Source: an uncultured Bacteroidales bacterium
GTDB lineage: Bacteria > Bacteroidota > Bacteroidia > Bacteroidales > UBA932
Length of the DNA stretch: 40,619 nucleotides
Direction: 5' to 3'
Assembly: GCA_900318445.1 (NCBI GenBank)
Contig: ONKO01000016.1
Coordinates: 1-40,619 of the forward strand
Each line of letters opens with the position of its first letter. Position 1 is the stretch's first letter. Positions 18,063 through 24,016 of the stretch are shown piece by piece. The translations under genes and the position numbers were made by a program. The notes beneath the pieces were generated by a model that was not told where the DNA came from, did no database searches, and saw nothing but the letters and a program-made list of their open reading frames with translations.

Positions 18063-19490
18063 ATGACAGACCAGGAAAGACATATCGCGGTATGGCAGAA
18101 TTGTTTGCAGATCATCGAAAGCAACGTTGATCCGCAGCAGTTCAATACCTGGTTCAAGCCCATCCGGCCCATATCGCTGGTAGAGGCCAAGCTCACCGTG
18201 GAGGTCCCTTCGGATTTCTTCCGGGAGTACATTGAGGGAGCCTACAAGGATCTTCTCCGCCTCACCATCCGCCGCGCCATCGGGGCCGATGCTCAGCTGT
18301 TTTATCTGGTTCGCCCCGTGCAGTACCGCGAAGGCATGGTCCTTCCCTCTGCCAAGAGCGCCACTCCTACCAACAATCCGGTTTCGGTTCCCACTTACCA
18401 GCCTTCGGGCAGCCCCAGTCCTTTTGTATTCCCGGGCACTACGCGCGTGAGGATTAACCCGCGCCTCAATCCGGTGTACTGCTTTGGAAACCTGGTGGAG
18501 GGTGAGTGCAACAAACTGGGTATCAATGCCGGCGAGAGCATCTCGCACGCCCCTGGAAAAACGCCTTTCAATCCGCTTTTCCTCTTCGGCGGCCCCGGTC
18601 TCGGCAAAACACACATCGCCCAGGCCATCGGCATCGATATCAAGGAACGTTTCCAGGACAAGGTGGTGCTCTACGTGACCGGCAACGAGTTCAAGACGCA
18701 GTACATGGACGCCGTCAAAGGCAACCGAATTGTGGATTTCATCGCTTTCTATCAGAGAATTGACGTTCTCATCGTGGACGATATCCAGGACCTGGTGGGT
18801 CAGGCTTCCCAGAACACCTTCTTCAATGTGTTCAATCACCTGCACCAGAACGGCAAGCAGCTCATCTTCACCAGCGACCGCGCTCCCGTGGACCTGCAGA
18901 ACTTCGAGGAAAGGCTGCTCTCCCGCTTCAAGTGGGGCCTGTCTGTGGAACTGTCCCGCCCGGATTACAACACCCGCCTGGAGATGCTCCGCGGCCGTGC
19001 CCAGCGGGAAGGCGTCACCCTGTCGGAAGACGTTCTCTCCTTCCTGGCTTCCCGCATCAAGACCAATTTCCGTGAGCTGGAAGGCACCTTCACCTCCCTT
19101 GTGGCCTATGCCACGCTGGGTCACCGCAACATTGACGTAGACCTGGCCCAGAACATTACCGGCAAGATTGTCGGTGAGGAGGAGACCGAAGTGAGCATGG
19201 AAACCATCATCTCCACCGTCTGCGAGTACTTCAACATCACCCGCGAGCAAATGCTCTCCAGAAGCCGTGTGCGCCAGATCGTCCAGGCCCGTCAGATTGC
19301 CATGTACGAGTGCCGCAACCTCATCCAGAACTGCTCCCTCTCCACCATCGGTGCAGAACTGGGCGGCAAGGACCACGCCACCGTCCTCCACGCCTGCACC
19401 ACCGTCCACGACCTCATGTCCACCGACAAACTCTTCCGCCAGTGGGTAGAGGACATCGAAGGCATGATTGTGGTTCCCGTAGAGCAGTAG
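18063..19490 (+). CDS. dnaA: chromosomal replication initiator DnaA
   Basis: This is a 475-residue AAA+ initiator that binds origin DnaA boxes and opens the duplex. Domain I covers about residues 1-85, followed by a Pro/Ser linker (about 90-125). The ATPase has Walker A GGPGLGKTH (176-184), Walker B VLIVDDIQD (235-243) and a sensor-type SDRAPVDLQNF segment. Domain IV (about 385-470) carries the DNA-binding helix-turn-helix and the signature near IGAELGGKDHATVLHA. Length is normal for Bacteroidetes. It is preceded by an AT-rich non-coding region and followed directly by the inverted copy of the two-hairpin repeat, which lies between its 3' end and convergent rpe. Confidence 0.98.
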   Translation: MTDQERHIAVWQNCLQIIESNVDPQQFNTWFKPIRPISLVEAKLTVEVPSDFFREYIEGAYKDLLRLTIRRAIGADAQLFYLVRPVQYREGMVLPSAKSATPTNNPVSVPTYQPSGSPSPFVFPGTTRVRINPRLNPVYCFGNLVEGECNKLGINAGESISHAPGKTPFNPLFLFGGPGLGKTHIAQAIGIDIKERFQDKVVLYVTGNEFKTQYMDAVKGNRIVDFIAFYQRIDVLIVDDIQDLVGQASQNTFFNVFNHLHQNGKQLIFTSDRAPVDLQNFEERLLSRFKWGLSVELSRPDYNTRLEMLRGRAQREGVTLSEDVLSFLASRIKTNFRELEGTFTSLVAYATLGHRNIDVDLAQNITGKIVGEEETEVSMETIISTVCEYFNITREQMLSRSRVRQIVQARQIAMYECRNLIQNCSLSTIGAELGGKDHATVLHACTTVHDLMSTDKLFRQWVEDIEGMIVVPVEQ

Positions 19491-19513
19491 GGCAGCGCAG
19501 GCTTCTTCTTTTT

Positions 19514-19611
19514 GGCGCAGGTTCCAAAACAGCGTCTGAACCTGCACCGCATTTTAGCCTCTCACCCCCTTCCAGTGGCGCCGGTTTCGCTTATAAAATG
19601 GAACCTGCGCC
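19514..19611 (-). repeat. 98-bp two-hairpin element, copy 1 (inverted)
   Basis: Read on the minus strand: hairpin 1 (19611-19577, starting GGCGCAGGTTCCATTTTA), a 28-bp spacer starting ACTGGAAG, and hairpin 2 (19548-19514, GGTGCAGGTTC ... GAACCTGCGCC). The lengths 35-28-35 are identical to the copies at 21899 and 23784. Hairpin 1 has one stem mismatch (A opposite G). It lies between the convergent 3' ends of dnaA and rpe and could also serve as a transcription stop. Confidence 0.88.
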
Positions 19612-19633
19612 ATCCACCCTTGGAACCTGCGCC
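19612..19633 (-). repeat. single 22-bp unit beside copy 1
   Basis: On the minus strand this unit starts GGCGCAGGTTCCAAGGG and ends GGAT, directly before hairpin 1. It repeats the hairpin arm sequence and corresponds to the 21-bp units found beside the other copies. Confidence 0.7.
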
Positions 19634-19664
19634 ATCCACCCTCGGCCCGCTGACATATATGGCG

Positions 19665-20312
19665 TTACCCCCGCATGGCACGGATGGCGGCGGCGGGGTT
19701 ATCGGCCTTAAAGACGGAACTGCCGGCGACGAGCATGGTGGCACCGGCTTCTTTTACGGCGGCGGCGTTGGCTGGGCCGATACCGCCGTCTATCTCGATG
19801 GGGACGTCGGGGCGGCCGATGGCGTCGAGCTGCTTACGGACGGCGCGGACACGGTCAATGGACTCCGGGATGAACTTCTGGCCGCCAAAGCCGGCGAACA
19901 CGCTCATGATGAGCACAAAATCCACTTTGGGCAGCAGCGGAAAAATTTTTTCTACGGGGCAGTCGGGGTTGATGACGATTCCGGCCTTTACGCCCAGTGC
20001 CTGGATTTGCTGCAGGATATCGGCCGATGCCTCACCGGCGGCCTCATAGTGGAAGCTGATGTAGGCGGCTCCGGCTTTGGCGAAACGCTCTACGTATTTT
20101 TCCGGATGCACGATCATCAGGTGCACGTCCAGGGGCTTGCGGGCTTTGCGGGCAATGGCCTCCACCACGGGGAAACCGTAGGAGATGTTGGGCACGAAGG
20201 TGCCATCCATGATGTCCAGATGGAAAAGGTCTGCAAACTCGTTCACCAGTTCCACATCTTTTTCGAGGTGCAGGAAGTCGGCGGCGAGCATGGAGGGTGC
20301 TATCTGTACCAT
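19665..20312 (-). CDS. rpe: ribulose-phosphate 3-epimerase
   Basis: This is a 215-residue TIM-barrel enzyme that interconverts ribulose 5-phosphate and xylulose 5-phosphate in the pentose phosphate pathway. Motifs seen are APSMLAADFLHLE, the metal-binding HLDIMDGTFVPN, LDVHLMI, IEIDGGIG and the phosphate-binding VAGSSVF. The loop usually written MSVNPGFGGQ reads MSVFAGFGGQ here, replacing Asn-Pro by Phe-Ala while keeping GFGGQ. Length is normal. The gene starts 1 base after the pepD stop, so the two form an operon. Its 3' end faces dnaA across copy 1 of the two-hairpin repeat. Confidence 0.95.
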   Translation of the reverse strand: MVQIAPSMLAADFLHLEKDVELVNEFADLFHLDIMDGTFVPNISYGFPVVEAIARKARKPLDVHLMIVHPEKYVERFAKAGAAYISFHYEAAGEASADILQQIQALGVKAGIVINPDCPVEKIFPLLPKVDFVLIMSVFAGFGGQKFIPESIDRVRAVRKQLDAIGRPDVPIEIDGGIGPANAAAVKEAGATMLVAGSSVFKADNPAAAIRAMRG

Positions 20313-20313
20313 A

Positions 20314-21741
20314 TTATCTGAAGTTTAGGACGACGTCGTTCAGGTGGGCTACAAACTTGTCCAGTGAAGCCAGCTCCAGTTTTTCTCCGGGGGCGTGTAC
20401 GCCGCGGAGGGTGGGGCCGAAGGAAATCATGTCCAGATCCGGGAACTTCTCCAGGAAGAGACCGCATTCCAGACCGGCGTGGATGGCTTTGACTTCGGGT
20501 TCGTGGCCGAAGAGCTTGACGTAGGATTCGCGGGAGACCTCCAGCACGTGGGATTTGAGGTTGGGCTTCCAGCCGGGATATTCGCCGTGGTGTTCTACGT
20601 CGAAGGAGCCCAGGAAGAAGGCGGCTTCCACTTTTTCGGCCATGGCGTGGAGCTCGGAAACGACGGAGCTGCGCTGGCTGGTGATAACCTTGAGCACGTC
20701 TCCCTCGATGTGTACGGCAGCCAGGTTGGTGGAGGTTTCTACCAGGCCGGGGATGTCGGAGGAGACTTTCTCCACGCCGTGCGGGCAGGCAAGGAGCGTG
20801 GCGATGAGGTTGGCGGCGTCTCCCTCGGCGATGGGCTTGTCCTTGCACTCGCAGGGGGTGCAGTCGGCCCGGACATCGGGATCCGAAGCGGCGTACTCGG
20901 CGGCGAGGAGGTCGCTGAAGGCTTTGACATCGGCCTGCATTTCCTCGGCTTCGTCGGCGGGAACGGCGATGATGGCCACGGCCTCGCGGCAGATGGCGTT
21001 GGGCTTGTTGCCGCCGTCCAGGCCGATGAGCTGGAAGTCGTACTGAAGCTCCGTGAACAGGAAGCGGACGAGTTCCTTGAGGGCGTTGGCGCGGTTCTTG
21101 TTGATGTCGTCTCCGCTGTGGCCTCCCTGTGCGCCAAAGACCCTGACCTTCAGTGTCTTGTATCCTTTCCGGAGCGGTTCCCGGGTGAACTCGAAGGTGG
21201 CGGTTGTGTCCAGGCCGCCGGCGCAGCCCACGAAGAGCTGGCCCTCGTCCTCGGAGTCCAGGTTGATGAGCGTCTTGCCCGTAAAGAAGCCCGGCTCCAG
21301 TGCAAAGGCACCGTCCATGCCGGTCTCTTCCGAGATGGTGAACAGGCACTCCAGCTTGCCCATGGGCAGGTCGCTGTCCAGCAGAGCCAGGCAGGCGGCT
21401 ATGCCGATGCCGTCGTCGGCGCCCAGCGTGGTGTTCTCGGCTACCATCCAGCCGTCTTTGATGACATAGGGGATGGGCTGCGAGTGGAAGTCGAAATCGA
21501 AGCCCGCATTTTTTTCACACACCATGTCCTGATGGGCCTGCAGCACCAGCGTGGGTACATTCTCTTTTCCCTTGGATGCTTCCTTGGTGATGACGACGTT
21601 GCCGGTGGAGTCTGTCTTGCAGGCCAGCGTGCGCTTAGCGGCGAACTGCTGCAGGTACTCGGTCATTTTTTCTTCGTGGCCCGACTCGCGGGGGACACAG
21701 GTAATTTCCTGGAAAAACTTGAGGACAGATGCGGAATCCAT
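20314..21741 (-). CDS. pepD: aminoacyl-histidine dipeptidase (PepD, M20 family)
   Basis: This is a 475-residue zinc exopeptidase that cleaves dipeptides such as Xaa-His (carnosine). The start MDSASVLKFFQEITCVPRES is chosen; a longer open frame upstream runs through the repeat array at 21.8-22.0 kb and is not coding. Metal and catalytic motifs are TLVLQAHQDMVCEKN, TLGADDGIGIAACLA, SEETGMDGAF and NLDSEDEGQLFVGCAGG, with a lid domain between and a C-terminal half carrying HAGLECGLF. The gene is the first of a pepD-rpe pair. The region just upstream is packed with 21-bp repeat units, so its promoter must lie within or beside them. Confidence 0.95.
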   Translation of the reverse strand: MDSASVLKFFQEITCVPRESGHEEKMTEYLQQFAAKRTLACKTDSTGNVVITKEASKGKENVPTLVLQAHQDMVCEKNAGFDFDFHSQPIPYVIKDGWMVAENTTLGADDGIGIAACLALLDSDLPMGKLECLFTISEETGMDGAFALEPGFFTGKTLINLDSEDEGQLFVGCAGGLDTTATFEFTREPLRKGYKTLKVRVFGAQGGHSGDDINKNRANALKELVRFLFTELQYDFQLIGLDGGNKPNAICREAVAIIAVPADEAEEMQADVKAFSDLLAAEYAASDPDVRADCTPCECKDKPIAEGDAANLIATLLACPHGVEKVSSDIPGLVETSTNLAAVHIEGDVLKVITSQRSSVVSELHAMAEKVEAAFFLGSFDVEHHGEYPGWKPNLKSHVLEVSRESYVKLFGHEPEVKAIHAGLECGLFLEKFPDLDMISFGPTLRGVHAPGEKLELASLDKFVAHLNDVVLNFR

Positions 21742-21793
21742 AATATTCTTGGTTTTTCTCACCAAAGATACACATTTTTCAGTGGAATTGCAA

Positions 21794-21898
21794 CTGCAGG
21801 TTGCGGGCTTTGCTGGCGCAGGTCCCGGGTTTGGCGGCGCAGGTCCCGGGCTGTGCGGCGCAGGTCGCTGGCTCGCTGGCGCAGGTTCCGGGCTAAAT
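21794..21898 (+). repeat. tandem array of five 21-bp units leading copy 2
   Basis: Units start at 21794 (degenerate), 21815, 21836, 21857 and 21878. Most begin GGCGCAGGT followed by a variable 12-base part such as CCCGGGTTTGGC. The sixth step of the same 21-bp rhythm is the start of hairpin 1 at 21899. All units point the same way, towards the element. Confidence 0.85.
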
Positions 21899-21996
21899 GG
21901 AGCAAGTCCCATTTTATGGTCGGAACTTGCTCCACTGGAAGTACCTGGAAGGCCGAAATGCGGTGCAGGTTTCGGCCTTGTTTTGGAACCTGCACC
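21899..21996 (+). repeat. 98-bp two-hairpin element, copy 2
   Basis: Hairpin 1 is 21899-21933, with stem GGAGCAAGT/ACTTGCTCC and the conserved CATTTTA in the loop. The spacer is 21934-21961. Hairpin 2 is 21962-21996, with stem GGTGCAGGTT/AACCTGCACC. Compared with the copy at 23784, hairpin 1 has changed bases on both sides of the stem so that pairing is kept. The element ends one base before the transposase stop codon (21998-22000), so it abuts the 3' end of that gene. Confidence 0.9.
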
Positions 21997-21997
21997 A

Positions 21998-22966
21998 CTA
22001 TCGGCCCTCATCCCCACTATCGGCCCTTCTCTCCGCATTTCCCCTTCTTGGTTTCTGCGTCAGCCTCTCCACATCTTCCCGTTTCATTCTCATGCAGCGG
22101 GCGAGCTGTGGCACTGAGGTCCTGTAACAGCGGTAAATGTAGGGAACCAGGCGGATTTTCTGTTCCGGAGTGAGCTCTGCCGGCGTTTTCTGGAACCATC
22201 GGCCTGCAAGGTCGTTCACGGTGAGGAGAAACTCGGCATCGGGACGCCAGGCCCGCAGGTTAGTGATGAGTTTTTGCTTCATTTCATCGGGATTGACCGA
22301 GCCGATGGTTTTCAGAAAAAACGCCTGATCGTGGTTGAAAGCGGCCTCCAGGTATTCCCAGTTGCTGCAAGTGGCGGGTACCAGATGCCCGTTGCGGTCC
22401 AGCATCCAGGGGACCTTGCTCAGATCGGCATGGGTGTGCATCAGATCTTCCTTCTCTCTTCGTGAGAGGGCGGCTACGGCCTTGTACCCATCGGCACTTT
22501 TCCCGCCCGCGAACATGGCCCGGTAACTGCACCATGGGTAATCTTCTATCCGGCATCCGATATCGGCGACGTTCCGGGGAATGTATGCCAGGACACTGCG
22601 GACGTACCAGTTGTTGTCCAGCATCTGTACGTCCACGGACGTTCCCAGCAGCACATTGTTTTCGCCATACTTTCGGGAGATATACATGGAACAGCGCCTT
22701 TTCAGCTCATTGGCTGCACGCCGGGCGGCCTCCAGGCTGGTAGCCAGCACACTCACATGCGCATGGTTGGACATGACTACGTGGATGATTACGTCGACAC
22801 CACATTCCAGCGCCGATATGAAAATGTATTTTTCCACAACGTCATAGTCTTCATCGTCCCTGCACAGCAGATTGCTCTCCAGACCCTCCAGGCTGATATG
22901 GAATGGAAAAAACCTGGCCGATAATCCGTTCGGAAGTGTCCGGGTTACAACTCGCTCGAATCCCAT
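21998..22966 (-). CDS. IS200-like/REP-associated tyrosine transposase (Y1_Tnp)
   Basis: This 322-residue protein belongs to the HUH single-strand DNA nuclease superfamily that cuts and joins at hairpins. The HUH motif is His68-Ala-His70 in HVVMSNHAHVSV. The likely catalytic tyrosine is Tyr128 in VLAYIPRNVADIG, equivalent to the YIxxNPVRAG motif of RAYT proteins. The C-terminal half (from about residue 190) is extra compared with short IS200 transposases. The ATG has an excellent ribosome site (AGGAGGAGG) and lies inside the 3' end of the HRDC gene, so translation is coupled. The gene has no IS-type terminal repeats of its own but is flanked by two-hairpin elements on both sides, as expected for a domesticated RAYT that acts on dispersed REP sequences. 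Confidence 0.88.
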   Translation of the reverse strand: MGFERVVTRTLPNGLSARFFPFHISLEGLESNLLCRDDEDYDVVEKYIFISALECGVDVIIHVVMSNHAHVSVLATSLEAARRAANELKRRCSMYISRKYGENNVLLGTSVDVQMLDNNWYVRSVLAYIPRNVADIGCRIEDYPWCSYRAMFAGGKSADGYKAVAALSRREKEDLMHTHADLSKVPWMLDRNGHLVPATCSNWEYLEAAFNHDQAFFLKTIGSVNPDEMKQKLITNLRAWRPDAEFLLTVNDLAGRWFQKTPAELTPEQKIRLVPYIYRCYRTSVPQLARCMRMKREDVERLTQKPRRGNAERRADSGDEGR

Positions 22967-23352
22967 GGAGCTTCCTCCTCCTCTCTATATTCTTCCGGAT
23001 TATTCTTCCTGTATTGGAGCACGATGTCCAGAATCTCATTGCCGAAGCGATCCAACTGATTGAACCCGAATCCCTTGATGCTCATCAGATCTTCCTCGGT
23101 GACCGGCGACAGGTTGGATATGGCAAGCAATACCTTGTTAGTGAGGATGATATAGGCCGATAAATCCAGCTCCCGCGCTTTCTCCCTTCGCCACTTCCGC
23201 AGAATCGAGGAGAGCTCCGGATGCAAGTTGACCGGAACGTTGTTCTCCAGCATTGTGAAGAAGTCCGGACTGTTGACCGTGATCTGGAAGATGTCGCTTT
23301 TGGCCTGGATGATACCATTGTCATCCTGCGTGATAAGAAGTAGTGTTTTCAT
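22945..23352 (-). CDS. HRDC-domain protein
   Basis: This is a 135-residue protein. Residues about 48-118 match an HRDC domain, the small helical nucleic-acid-binding module of RecQ helicases and RNase D (LRKWRREKARELDLSAYIIL, then LSPVTEEDLMSIKGFGFNQL). The first 45 residues form a separate small region (MKTLLLITQDDNGIIQAKSD). The tail is acidic. The start at 23352 is preferred over an upstream in-frame ATG that lacks homology. It overlaps the transposase gene by 22 bases. There is no helicase or nuclease domain, so it may be a DNA-binding accessory protein. A role with the transposase is an inference from context. Confidence 0.85.
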   Translation of the reverse strand: MKTLLLITQDDNGIIQAKSDIFQITVNSPDFFTMLENNVPVNLHPELSSILRKWRREKARELDLSAYIILTNKVLLAISNLSPVTEEDLMSIKGFGFNQLDRFGNEILDIVLQYRKNNPEEYREEEEAPWDSSEL

Positions 23353-23434
23353 AAACTTTTGGTTTTTAGGTGTTATGATTTGTTTTAGGTTGCGCGCATG
23401 TACCGTGCTGCGCTTTTGACAAAGGAAAGAAGAA

Positions 23435-23599
23435 TTATCCGTTTCACATGAATATGAAACGTTTAACTTTATTTTCGGCCTTTGAAGGCCCTGCAAGGCC
23501 GATTTTTCTGCCGACCGAAACGGATAAATGCAGCATTTTCATTTCCGGAAAGGCCAAAAACAGCCTCTGGCGTATGTCTATGGCCGATTATCCGTTTCA
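23435..23599. repeat. three copies of TTATCCGTTTC upstream of the HRDC gene
   Basis: The motif occurs at 23435-23445 (+), 23517-23527 (-) and 23588-23598 (+). The first is the left arm of a larger inverted repeat, CGTTTCA (23440-23446) with TGAAACG (23455-23461). The sites lie 80-250 bases upstream of the HRDC-transposase operon and could be operators. Confidence 0.5.
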
Positions 23600-23741
23600 A
23601 CTTTTGCCCTATTTTTCCGTCATGTTTTTTCGAAATGGCTATGGCGAGGCCCGCGGAGGGGTGTGATGAGGGCCGCGGAGGGGTATGGCAAGGTCGGCCG
23701 ATGGATCTGGGCGGCGGGTATGGGCGATGAGTATGGCCGAT

Positions 23742-23783
23742 GGCGCAGGTTCAGACTCGGATGGTTCAGGTTCCGACACGGAT
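23742..23783 (+). repeat. two 21-bp units leading copy 3
   Basis: Units at 23742-23762 (GGCGCAGGTTCAGACTCGG...) and 23763-23783 (GGTTCAGGTTCCGACACGG...) run into hairpin 1 at 23784 in the same 21-bp rhythm. A more degenerate unit ending GGCCGAT precedes them at 23721-23741. Confidence 0.8.
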
Positions 23784-23881
23784 GGCGCAGGTTCCATTTT
23801 AGGGCCGAAACCTGCGCCACCAGACTAGGGTGGAAGGCCGAAAAGCGGTGCAGGTTCCGACCTTGTTTTGGAACCTGCGCC
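23784..23881 (+). repeat. 98-bp two-hairpin element, copy 3
   Basis: Hairpin 1 is 23784-23818, with a perfect 10-bp stem GGCGCAGGTT/AACCTGCGCC and a loop containing ATTTTAGGGCCGA. The spacer is 23819-23846. Hairpin 2 is 23847-23881, a 12-bp stem GGTGCAGGTTCC/GGAACCTGCGCC with one G-T wobble and the loop GACCTTGTTTT. Hairpin 2 is close to the reverse complement of hairpin 1, so the element is a pair of inverted REP-like units. Confidence 0.9.
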
Positions 23882-24016
23882 GCTCAGGCTGGAACCTGCG
23901 CCGTTCACACCGGAACCTGCGCCGCTCGGGCTGGAACCTGCGCCGTTCACACCGGAACCTGCACCGCTCGGGCTGGAACCTGCGCCGTTCACACCGGAAC
24001 CTGCACCGCCCGCCGC
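23870..24016 (-). repeat. tandem array of seven 21-bp units trailing copy 3
   Basis: Units begin at 23870, 23891, 23912, 23933, 23954, 23975 and 23996. Each starts GGAACCTGC(G/A)CC. The 9-base remainder alternates between GTTCACACC and GCTC(A/G)GGCT, giving a 42-bp higher-order period. The first unit is the right arm of hairpin 2. The polarity is opposite to the leading units, so the arrays are mirror images around the element. Confidence 0.92.

Follow-up and report, generated by a model that had tools for sequence, protein, structure and literature searches.

The 40,619-nt stretch of DNA analyzed here (contig ONKO01000016.1 of an uncultured rumen Bacteroidales bacterium; hereafter the window) carries a gene for a RAYT-like transposase, an HRDC-domain gene overlapping it, and three copies of a 98-bp element with short repeated words beside them:

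19514..19611, minus strand: copy 1, inverted relative to the other two; 98-bp doublet core with a 28-bp spacer between two 35-bp hairpins
19612..19633, minus strand: single array unit next to copy 1 toward rpe, at 22 bp from the arm of the core
21793..21898, plus strand: five-unit array directed at copy 2, step 21-22 bp
21899..21996, plus strand: copy 2, 98-bp doublet core, ending one base before the RAYT stop codon
21998..22966, minus strand: RAYT-like HUH/Y1 transposase, 322 aa, with SNHAH (HUH) and AYIPRN (Tyr128) motifs and a helical C-terminal extension
22945..23352, minus strand: HRDC-domain accessory gene, overlapping the RAYT start
23742..23783, plus strand: two array units pointing toward copy 3
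23784..23881, plus strand: copy 3, 98-bp doublet core
23882..24007, minus strand: six inward-pointing 21-bp array units beyond copy 3, with two alternating spacer types

The original prediction of three copies with a 35-28-35 plan was confirmed at these coordinates, as was the placement of copies 2 and 3 on either side of the RAYT and HRDC genes and of copy 1 beyond pepD and rpe. Copy 1 is inverted as described: its complementarity is 82% with copy 3 (102 nt) and 76% with copy 2 (101 nt). The second hairpin was also proposed to be nearly the reverse complement of the first; this holds at 77% in copy 3, mostly as a consequence of each hairpin being palindromic on its own. Folding of the 98 nt as single-stranded DNA gave z-scores of -5.7 for copy 3 and -4.4 for copy 2 (0 of 200 shuffles as good in each case) and -2.8 for copy 1 (2 of 200). 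In copies 3 and 1 the predicted fold pairs the outer arms across the full element; that of copy 2 consists of hairpin 1 and a stem joining the spacer and hairpin 2. No Rfam family reached its gathering threshold in the window, and in five related loci only tRNAs did. New relative to the original prediction are the arrays beside the cores: inward-pointing words of the GGCGCAGGTTCC type, repeated every 21-22 bp. A second, weak unit accompanies copy 1 on the side facing dnaA, at a distance of about 20 bp.

The three elements are more than a chance resemblance, because the genome contains 22 full copies of the family, with the plan present in all 22. The arms are 12 bp long, with an AT-rich loop. 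In 21 of the 22, the core is lengthened by further inward-pointing copies of the 12-bp arm word, almost always at a step of 21-22 bp; the remaining copy (L022) has no arrays, but keeps the doublet. A GTAG tag lies within 8 nt of only 3 of the 88 hairpin feet, GTGG of one, and CGTC of none. Hairpin covariation within the family is weak. The copies are intergenic as far as could be judged. There are three apparent gene overlaps: those of L016 and L019 are, in our reading, with ORFs antisense to known genes, and that of L005 is with a weak call.

The assignment of the gene at 21998..22966 to the RAYT-type transposases is supported by its predicted fold, for which the top match by both Foldseek and VIA is 4er8, the E. 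coli RAYT with a REP hairpin. At the sequence level, the RAYT profile had no PDB match under E 0.8, and the window protein is below the cut-off for Pfam Y1_Tnp, which 30 of 61 clade members match at E ≤ 0.01. These 61 make up alignment A3: of 76 RAYT stretches, seven were left out for a stop or frame fault, and 60 of the remaining 69 were aligned with the window protein. H68, H70, and Y128 are invariant. The class 2 signature Y---NP is absent; in its place is YIPRN (in some YVPRN or YIPKN), followed by A, V, or T (12 sequences). The C-terminal end is helical, and T283, Q287, and R290 are conserved in a stretch that we read as a helix-turn-helix-like (HTH-like) end to the extension. Near-identical gene copies of the IS200/IS605 kind were not seen, the two other clade copies in the same genome (G000) sharing 50% and 45% identity with the window protein. 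Many clade loci have a small accessory gene upstream of the RAYT, in the window the HRDC gene; another such family, uncharacterized and named FLEV here for its MKKFLEV start, matched no Pfam family at cut-off (three members) and nothing in Foldseek at E ≤ 0.001.

All three RAYTs of the genome are flanked by REP-like repeats with copies elsewhere in it, and RAYTs in other genomes have such flanks as well. Within the genus, 83 of 300 genomes have a RAYT of the window clade, possibly a low count as up to seven candidates were scored per genome; in an order-wide sample (n = 295) the clade was matched only in the source genome and one congener. At 45 of 83 clade loci the same doublet plan is found, with a locus-specific arm word that is almost the same on the upstream and downstream sides of the RAYT; at the other 38 the threshold of the doublet detector was reached on neither side. 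Matching doublets on both sides occur at 28 of the 83, of which 25 were kept for word tests; of 73 element sides scoring at least 32, eight were left out for want of an AGGT in the four-arm consensus. On the negative side, of 11 RAYT pairs at a protein distance below 0.25, 6 have fully identical words over the columns compared. The 33 loci that had both an arm word and a protein row without breaks in A3 entered a Mantel test; these include related loci, which are not independent, and the permutations ignore kinship. Overall, these sequence comparisons support a coupling of RAYT and element word across relatives, if an imperfect one.

Window-family elements were detected at E ≤ 1e-8 in four of the 300 genus genomes, all four with a clade RAYT (two candidates were scored per genome in the element surveys, and counts may be low). 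In the three positive relatives, the RAYTs found are paired with other words or represent a different paralogue; G044 and G093 have full-length elements and no matching RAYT was found in them, and G149 has partial matches only. As the original prediction recognized, an element equally common in relatives lacking a RAYT would speak against a joint system. Elements of a second family, GTCGCAGGTC, are enriched with RAYT but not exclusive to it, with 12 of 83 RAYT-positive and 8 of 217 RAYT-negative genomes carrying them (Fisher p 0.0017, or 0.0038 without the source genome); 8 of the 20 carriers thus have no clade RAYT at E ≤ 1e-70. Some RAYTs of element-bearing genomes may have escaped detection because the assemblies are drafts.

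If the RAYT were a chance neighbor, the elements could be bidirectional terminators or mRNA 3′ stabilizers maintained by selection, as the location of 14 of the 22 copies between convergent genes and the strong predicted hairpins would allow. Terminators have no need of an arm word that follows the RAYT from locus to locus, however, and a terminator scan found none at the elements (a weak negative, because the scan allows loops of 3-8 only); this explanation seems quite improbable. The elements could also be passive repeats, copied by recombination or along with a second repeat family. Core pairs share a mean of 79.6 of 98 positions, but the closest reach 97 of 98 (L003/L005). Most of these closest pairs have a second inverted repeat next to them, so something other than the RAYT may have copied them. 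That repeat adjoins 10 of the 22 copies, several copies share sequence past the arrays, and one (L025) is a chimera of two element families. On the other side, 12 copies have no such neighbor, two (L021 and L022) lie between their own conserved genes at loci where relatives lack the element, and passive copying leaves the matching doublets on both sides of RAYTs unexplained; such copying is a very unlikely explanation. At a further locus, L014, the site is not cleanly element-free in G044, which has another repeat there.

The 98-bp elements are probably best explained as REPIN-like non-autonomous doublets cognate to the adjacent RAYT, spread with its help and diverging along with it. The doublet is predicted to fold into hairpins in single-stranded DNA; by analogy with the family, the RAYT would recognize its own arm word, cut the single strand with its HUH/tyrosine center, and help the doublet spread to intergenic sites. 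Joint divergence of RAYT and word would then yield several RAYT-element pairs per genome. Outward on the element sides, the arm word recurs in arrays at a step of two helical turns; they may provide extra sites for the RAYT C-terminal domain or an accessory protein, or be slippage products.

Under a rival explanation, the phased word is an iteron-like double-stranded operator or anchor for the RAYT C-terminal domain or an accessory protein, serving autoregulation or chromosome organization and spread by occasional recombination. The 21-22 bp step of two helical turns, the half-palindromic window word (GGnnCnnGnnCC, by eye), the conserved residues of the helical C-terminal end, and the presence of arrays on 43 of 65 RAYT-flanking elements are consistent with this. 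The other 22 of the 65 have the doublet without arrays, however, as does L022, so that the constant part is the doublet plan, and this explanation is unlikely. A combination is tentatively conceivable, with the catalytic domain handling the single-stranded doublet, and the arrays bound as double strands by the RAYT C-terminal domain or an HRDC or FLEV partner. If so, the arrays would form a docking platform open to amplification, and their sequence would have diversified alongside the transposase, yielding many separate specificities in a single rumen genus.

Our best reading of the locus is as a REPIN/RAYT-like system without a GTAG guide and with phased arrays. The original proposal of a REP/BIME-RAYT system in Bacteroidales is supported by the predicted fold, the multicopy intergenic element, and the apparent RAYT-word coupling, and the element family has the REPIN plan of two inverted REP units and a spacer forming a long hairpin. 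As described in excerpts of PMC3116915, the REPINs of Pseudomonas fluorescens SBW25 are extragenic, in three families each near its own RAYT, and are likewise inverted doublets of palindromic units folding as a hairpin. They number in the hundreds, rather than the tens found here; SBW25 also has tandem REP arrays, but with 72/112 bp spacing instead of inward-pointing words at 21-22 bp; and here there is no GTAG foot, and the arms are 12 bp with an AT-rich loop. The E. coli BIME/REP system with TnpA-REP (PDB 4er8) has the catalytic-domain fold and inverted palindrome pairs in common with this one, but its GTAG guide is essential, according to the portion of PMC8266576 available.

Among the TnpA-REP subclasses of Quentin et al. 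(2018; PMC6006769, in excerpt), 2.6 is found in Bacteroidetes, with flanking "atypical secondary structures" that have copies elsewhere, as here. However, its motifs are NH[LIV]H and YIH[QN]NP and its median length is 179 aa, vs. NHxH (x variable), YIPRN, and about 300-320 aa here, placing the window RAYT outside it. Subclass 2.1 (TIRYT) shares a C-terminal HTH-like extension, but has YIELNP and Y[IV]HLNP as Y motifs, and the excerpt reports that no REP-like sequences were found there, as opposed to the multicopy doublets here. HRDC is unmentioned in the part of that text examined, and none of the literature matches listed concerned a RAYT of Bacteroidales accompanied by HRDC or phased arrays. 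The departures from a textbook REP are the missing GTAG foot, the phased arrays, the long helical C-terminus, and the accessory genes. With relatives that have the same plan and different matching sequences, the system appears to be a new branch of the known REP/RAYT partnership, and one that is diversifying. RAYT recognition of REPs has been studied in a few proteobacterial, GTAG-guided systems (PMC8266576, same portion); a single genus with many RAYTs, diverged but matched arm words, one architecture, and no GTAG could serve as a natural set for a recognition code. The accessory genes (HRDC, FLEV) could bear on the upkeep of domesticated transposases.

Inversion of pepD-rpe by recombination between the inverted copies 1 and 2 was first proposed because eight relatives are colinear, and then dropped. 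Among 29 relatives, pepD follows dnaA in the same direction in 19, six have no test gene in the available flank, and four (G310, G287, G204, and G131) share the inverted order of the window, with no element seen by eye at the junctions (pepD-rsfS stretch inspected in full for G287, and over its first 600 bases for the others); the element is therefore not credited with this inversion. A second inversion, at contig C27 relative to G245 and G044 (order worked out by hand), is associated with elements L017 and L004, whose cores are identical at 93 of 98 positions.

The 98-bp element of the window and the RAYT (an HUH/Y1 transposase-like protein) encoded beside it probably work like a REPIN/RAYT system. 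The original prediction of three copies, each a 35-bp hairpin, a 28-bp spacer and a second 35-bp hairpin, was confirmed on the window sequence:

19514-19611, element copy 1, inverted
21899-21996, element copy 2
21998-22966, minus strand, RAYT gene
22945-23352, minus strand, HRDC accessory gene
23784-23881, element copy 3

In the whole genome (2.31 Mb in 32 contigs, 88% complete), 22 full cores were found. Their spacing is 23/63/23 in 20 copies and 23/62/23 in two, and AAGGCCGA is kept in the spacer of 17. All three window copies are lengthened by arrays of the 12-bp hairpin-arm word GGCGCAGGTTCC; the full order is inward words, hairpin 1, spacer, hairpin 2, inward words, with arm words restricted to one side in some individual copies. 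Under loose rules (a match at 8 of 12 bases, only steps of 20-23), one or more array units accompany 21 of the 22, and the step is 21 or 22 bp in 84 of 86 cases. One locus (L025, contig C7:65736-65915) is chimeric, with a GGAC family at left, a GGAACCTGCGCC family at right and the junction near a TAAAAT loop.

A simple gene caller places 13 of the 22 copies between convergent genes, to which copy 1 (dnaA/rpe) adds a fourteenth; one copy adjoins a tRNA-Gly gene. The site of L022 has no element in the close relative G044, nor has that of L021 in G044 (which has a different short palindrome there) and G245. Ten copies (L002, L003, L005-L008, L011, L012, L015, L018) have within 420 bp another repeat, GTGGCGCTTAA...TTAAGCGCCAC, which has a long CAACTGACGGG hairpin; nine of the ten also have TGTACGTACA. 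Some core pairs beside it are nearly identical; this favors other copying routes for those pairs, and slightly lowers confidence in the REPIN/RAYT-like reading. On contig C27, near-identical copies (L017 and L004) bound a 5-kb segment that is inverted relative to G245 (order derived by hand), with an inverted duplicate, about 90 bp, of a neighboring gene.

The 322-aa RAYT scores below the Pfam Y1_Tnp cut-off. Its AlphaFold model (61-sequence alignment; pLDDT 88.1, pTM 0.82) has as best structural match the E. coli RAYT in complex with a REP hairpin, and H68, H70 and Y128 are invariant in the RAYT alignment. Residues about 197-303 form a helical extension whose end, as read from the alignment and the model, resembles a helix-turn-helix; stray HTH Pfam matches occur in single clade members. 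The predicted fold is that of a RAYT but the signature of published class 2 is absent, and the repeats are not GTAG-type. In a REPIN/RAYT-like system the protein would recognize, cut and spread the doublets, and the arrays may also have a role.

The plan recurs with different words at other RAYT loci. A sequence-blind detector, scoring nothing but a word followed by its reverse word twice in succession, was run on 83 loci: three from this genome and the 80 that ranked best among 143 named relatives. Scores of at least 32 (best of 60 shuffles, 30) were obtained on both sides of 28 loci, one side of 17 and neither side of 38; similar hairpins are visible by eye at several sub-threshold loci. Words vary by locus (GGCGCAGGTTCC, GTCGCAGGTC, GGACCAGGTCC, GGGCAAGGTC, GCACAAGGTC and others), with AGGT in the four-arm consensus of 65 of 73 element sides. 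Upstream and downstream words at one RAYT differ by 0.019, vs. 0.215 between loci (25 loci), and word distance tracks protein distance (rho 0.579, 33 loci). Arrays accompany 43 of 65 RAYT-flanking elements, with 151 of 157 steps at 21-22 bp; within 250 bp, 228 words point inward and 18 outward, and random positions had a word within reach in 52 of 2600 trials. The three clade RAYTs of this genome have three words, with 11 BLAST matches (not copies) to element family 2 and 18 to family 3. Five more distant RAYT-like genes (L062-L066) are also present: repeats of other types flank L063-L066 (in L064, for example, GCCGCGTTGACAC...GTCAACGCGGC), and no flanking repeat was recognized by eye at L062.

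Within the genus, 83 of 300 genomes have a clade RAYT (E<=1e-70), as do 39 of the 118 that are of good quality. An order-wide profile search (E<=1e-15; 295 genomes, 183 genera) gave two matches, this genome and a congener that reached only 2e-33. Among the best 80 of 143 named loci, almost all are labeled Bacteroidales or Bacteroidia, many from ruminant stomachs; one is labeled Fibrobacter and one Lachnospiraceae.

The expected co-occurrence of element and RAYT in relatives held in part: all four of the 300 genomes with window-family elements have a clade RAYT, but the cognate match is incomplete. G044 has two full copies, and its best RAYT (L164) has detector values identical to those of L079, whose word is GCTGCAGGTGG; G093 has two full-length matches, one good and the other weak, and G149 and G245 only partial matches. 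In G093 and G149 the RAYTs observed are related to the paralogue on contig C21 (73% and 60%). No match (E<=1e-4) was found in G053, G157, G164 or G156. Family 2 elements occur in 12 of 83 RAYT-positive and 8 of 217 RAYT-negative genomes. Given this distribution, either elements survive the loss of their RAYT or escape it, or draft genomes lack the gene.

In all eight relatives fetched (G044, G245, G149, G093, G157, G164, G156, G005), dnaA-pepD-rpe-rsfS-ftsH is colinear, with no RAYT match between dnaA and ftsH; G287 has the gene order of the window, with short junctions and no island. In the window (region 18063-21741) the pepD-rpe pair beside dnaA is inverted, as it also is in four of 29 relatives (L196, L203, L205, L201), with no element seen at the junctions in those four; the locus either flipped more than once or carries an old polymorphism.

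A small gene lies upstream of the RAYT at 56 of the 80 named loci (best 80 of 143): 47 of a family starting MKKFLEV or similar (modeled as a beta hairpin and three helices), six HRDC as in the window and three both; the search used found neither at 24. The most over-represented 7-mers of the window, GGCCGAT and GCCGATG (55-56 occurrences counting both strands, vs. 7.3 predicted by base composition), are possibly a genome-wide word; GGCCGAT does not exceed higher-order Markov expectation there. Upstream of the HRDC operon, the palindrome CGTTTCACATGAATATGAAACG (23440-23461) is a possible operator, and a similar sequence precedes the operon in L073, L075, L081 and L082.
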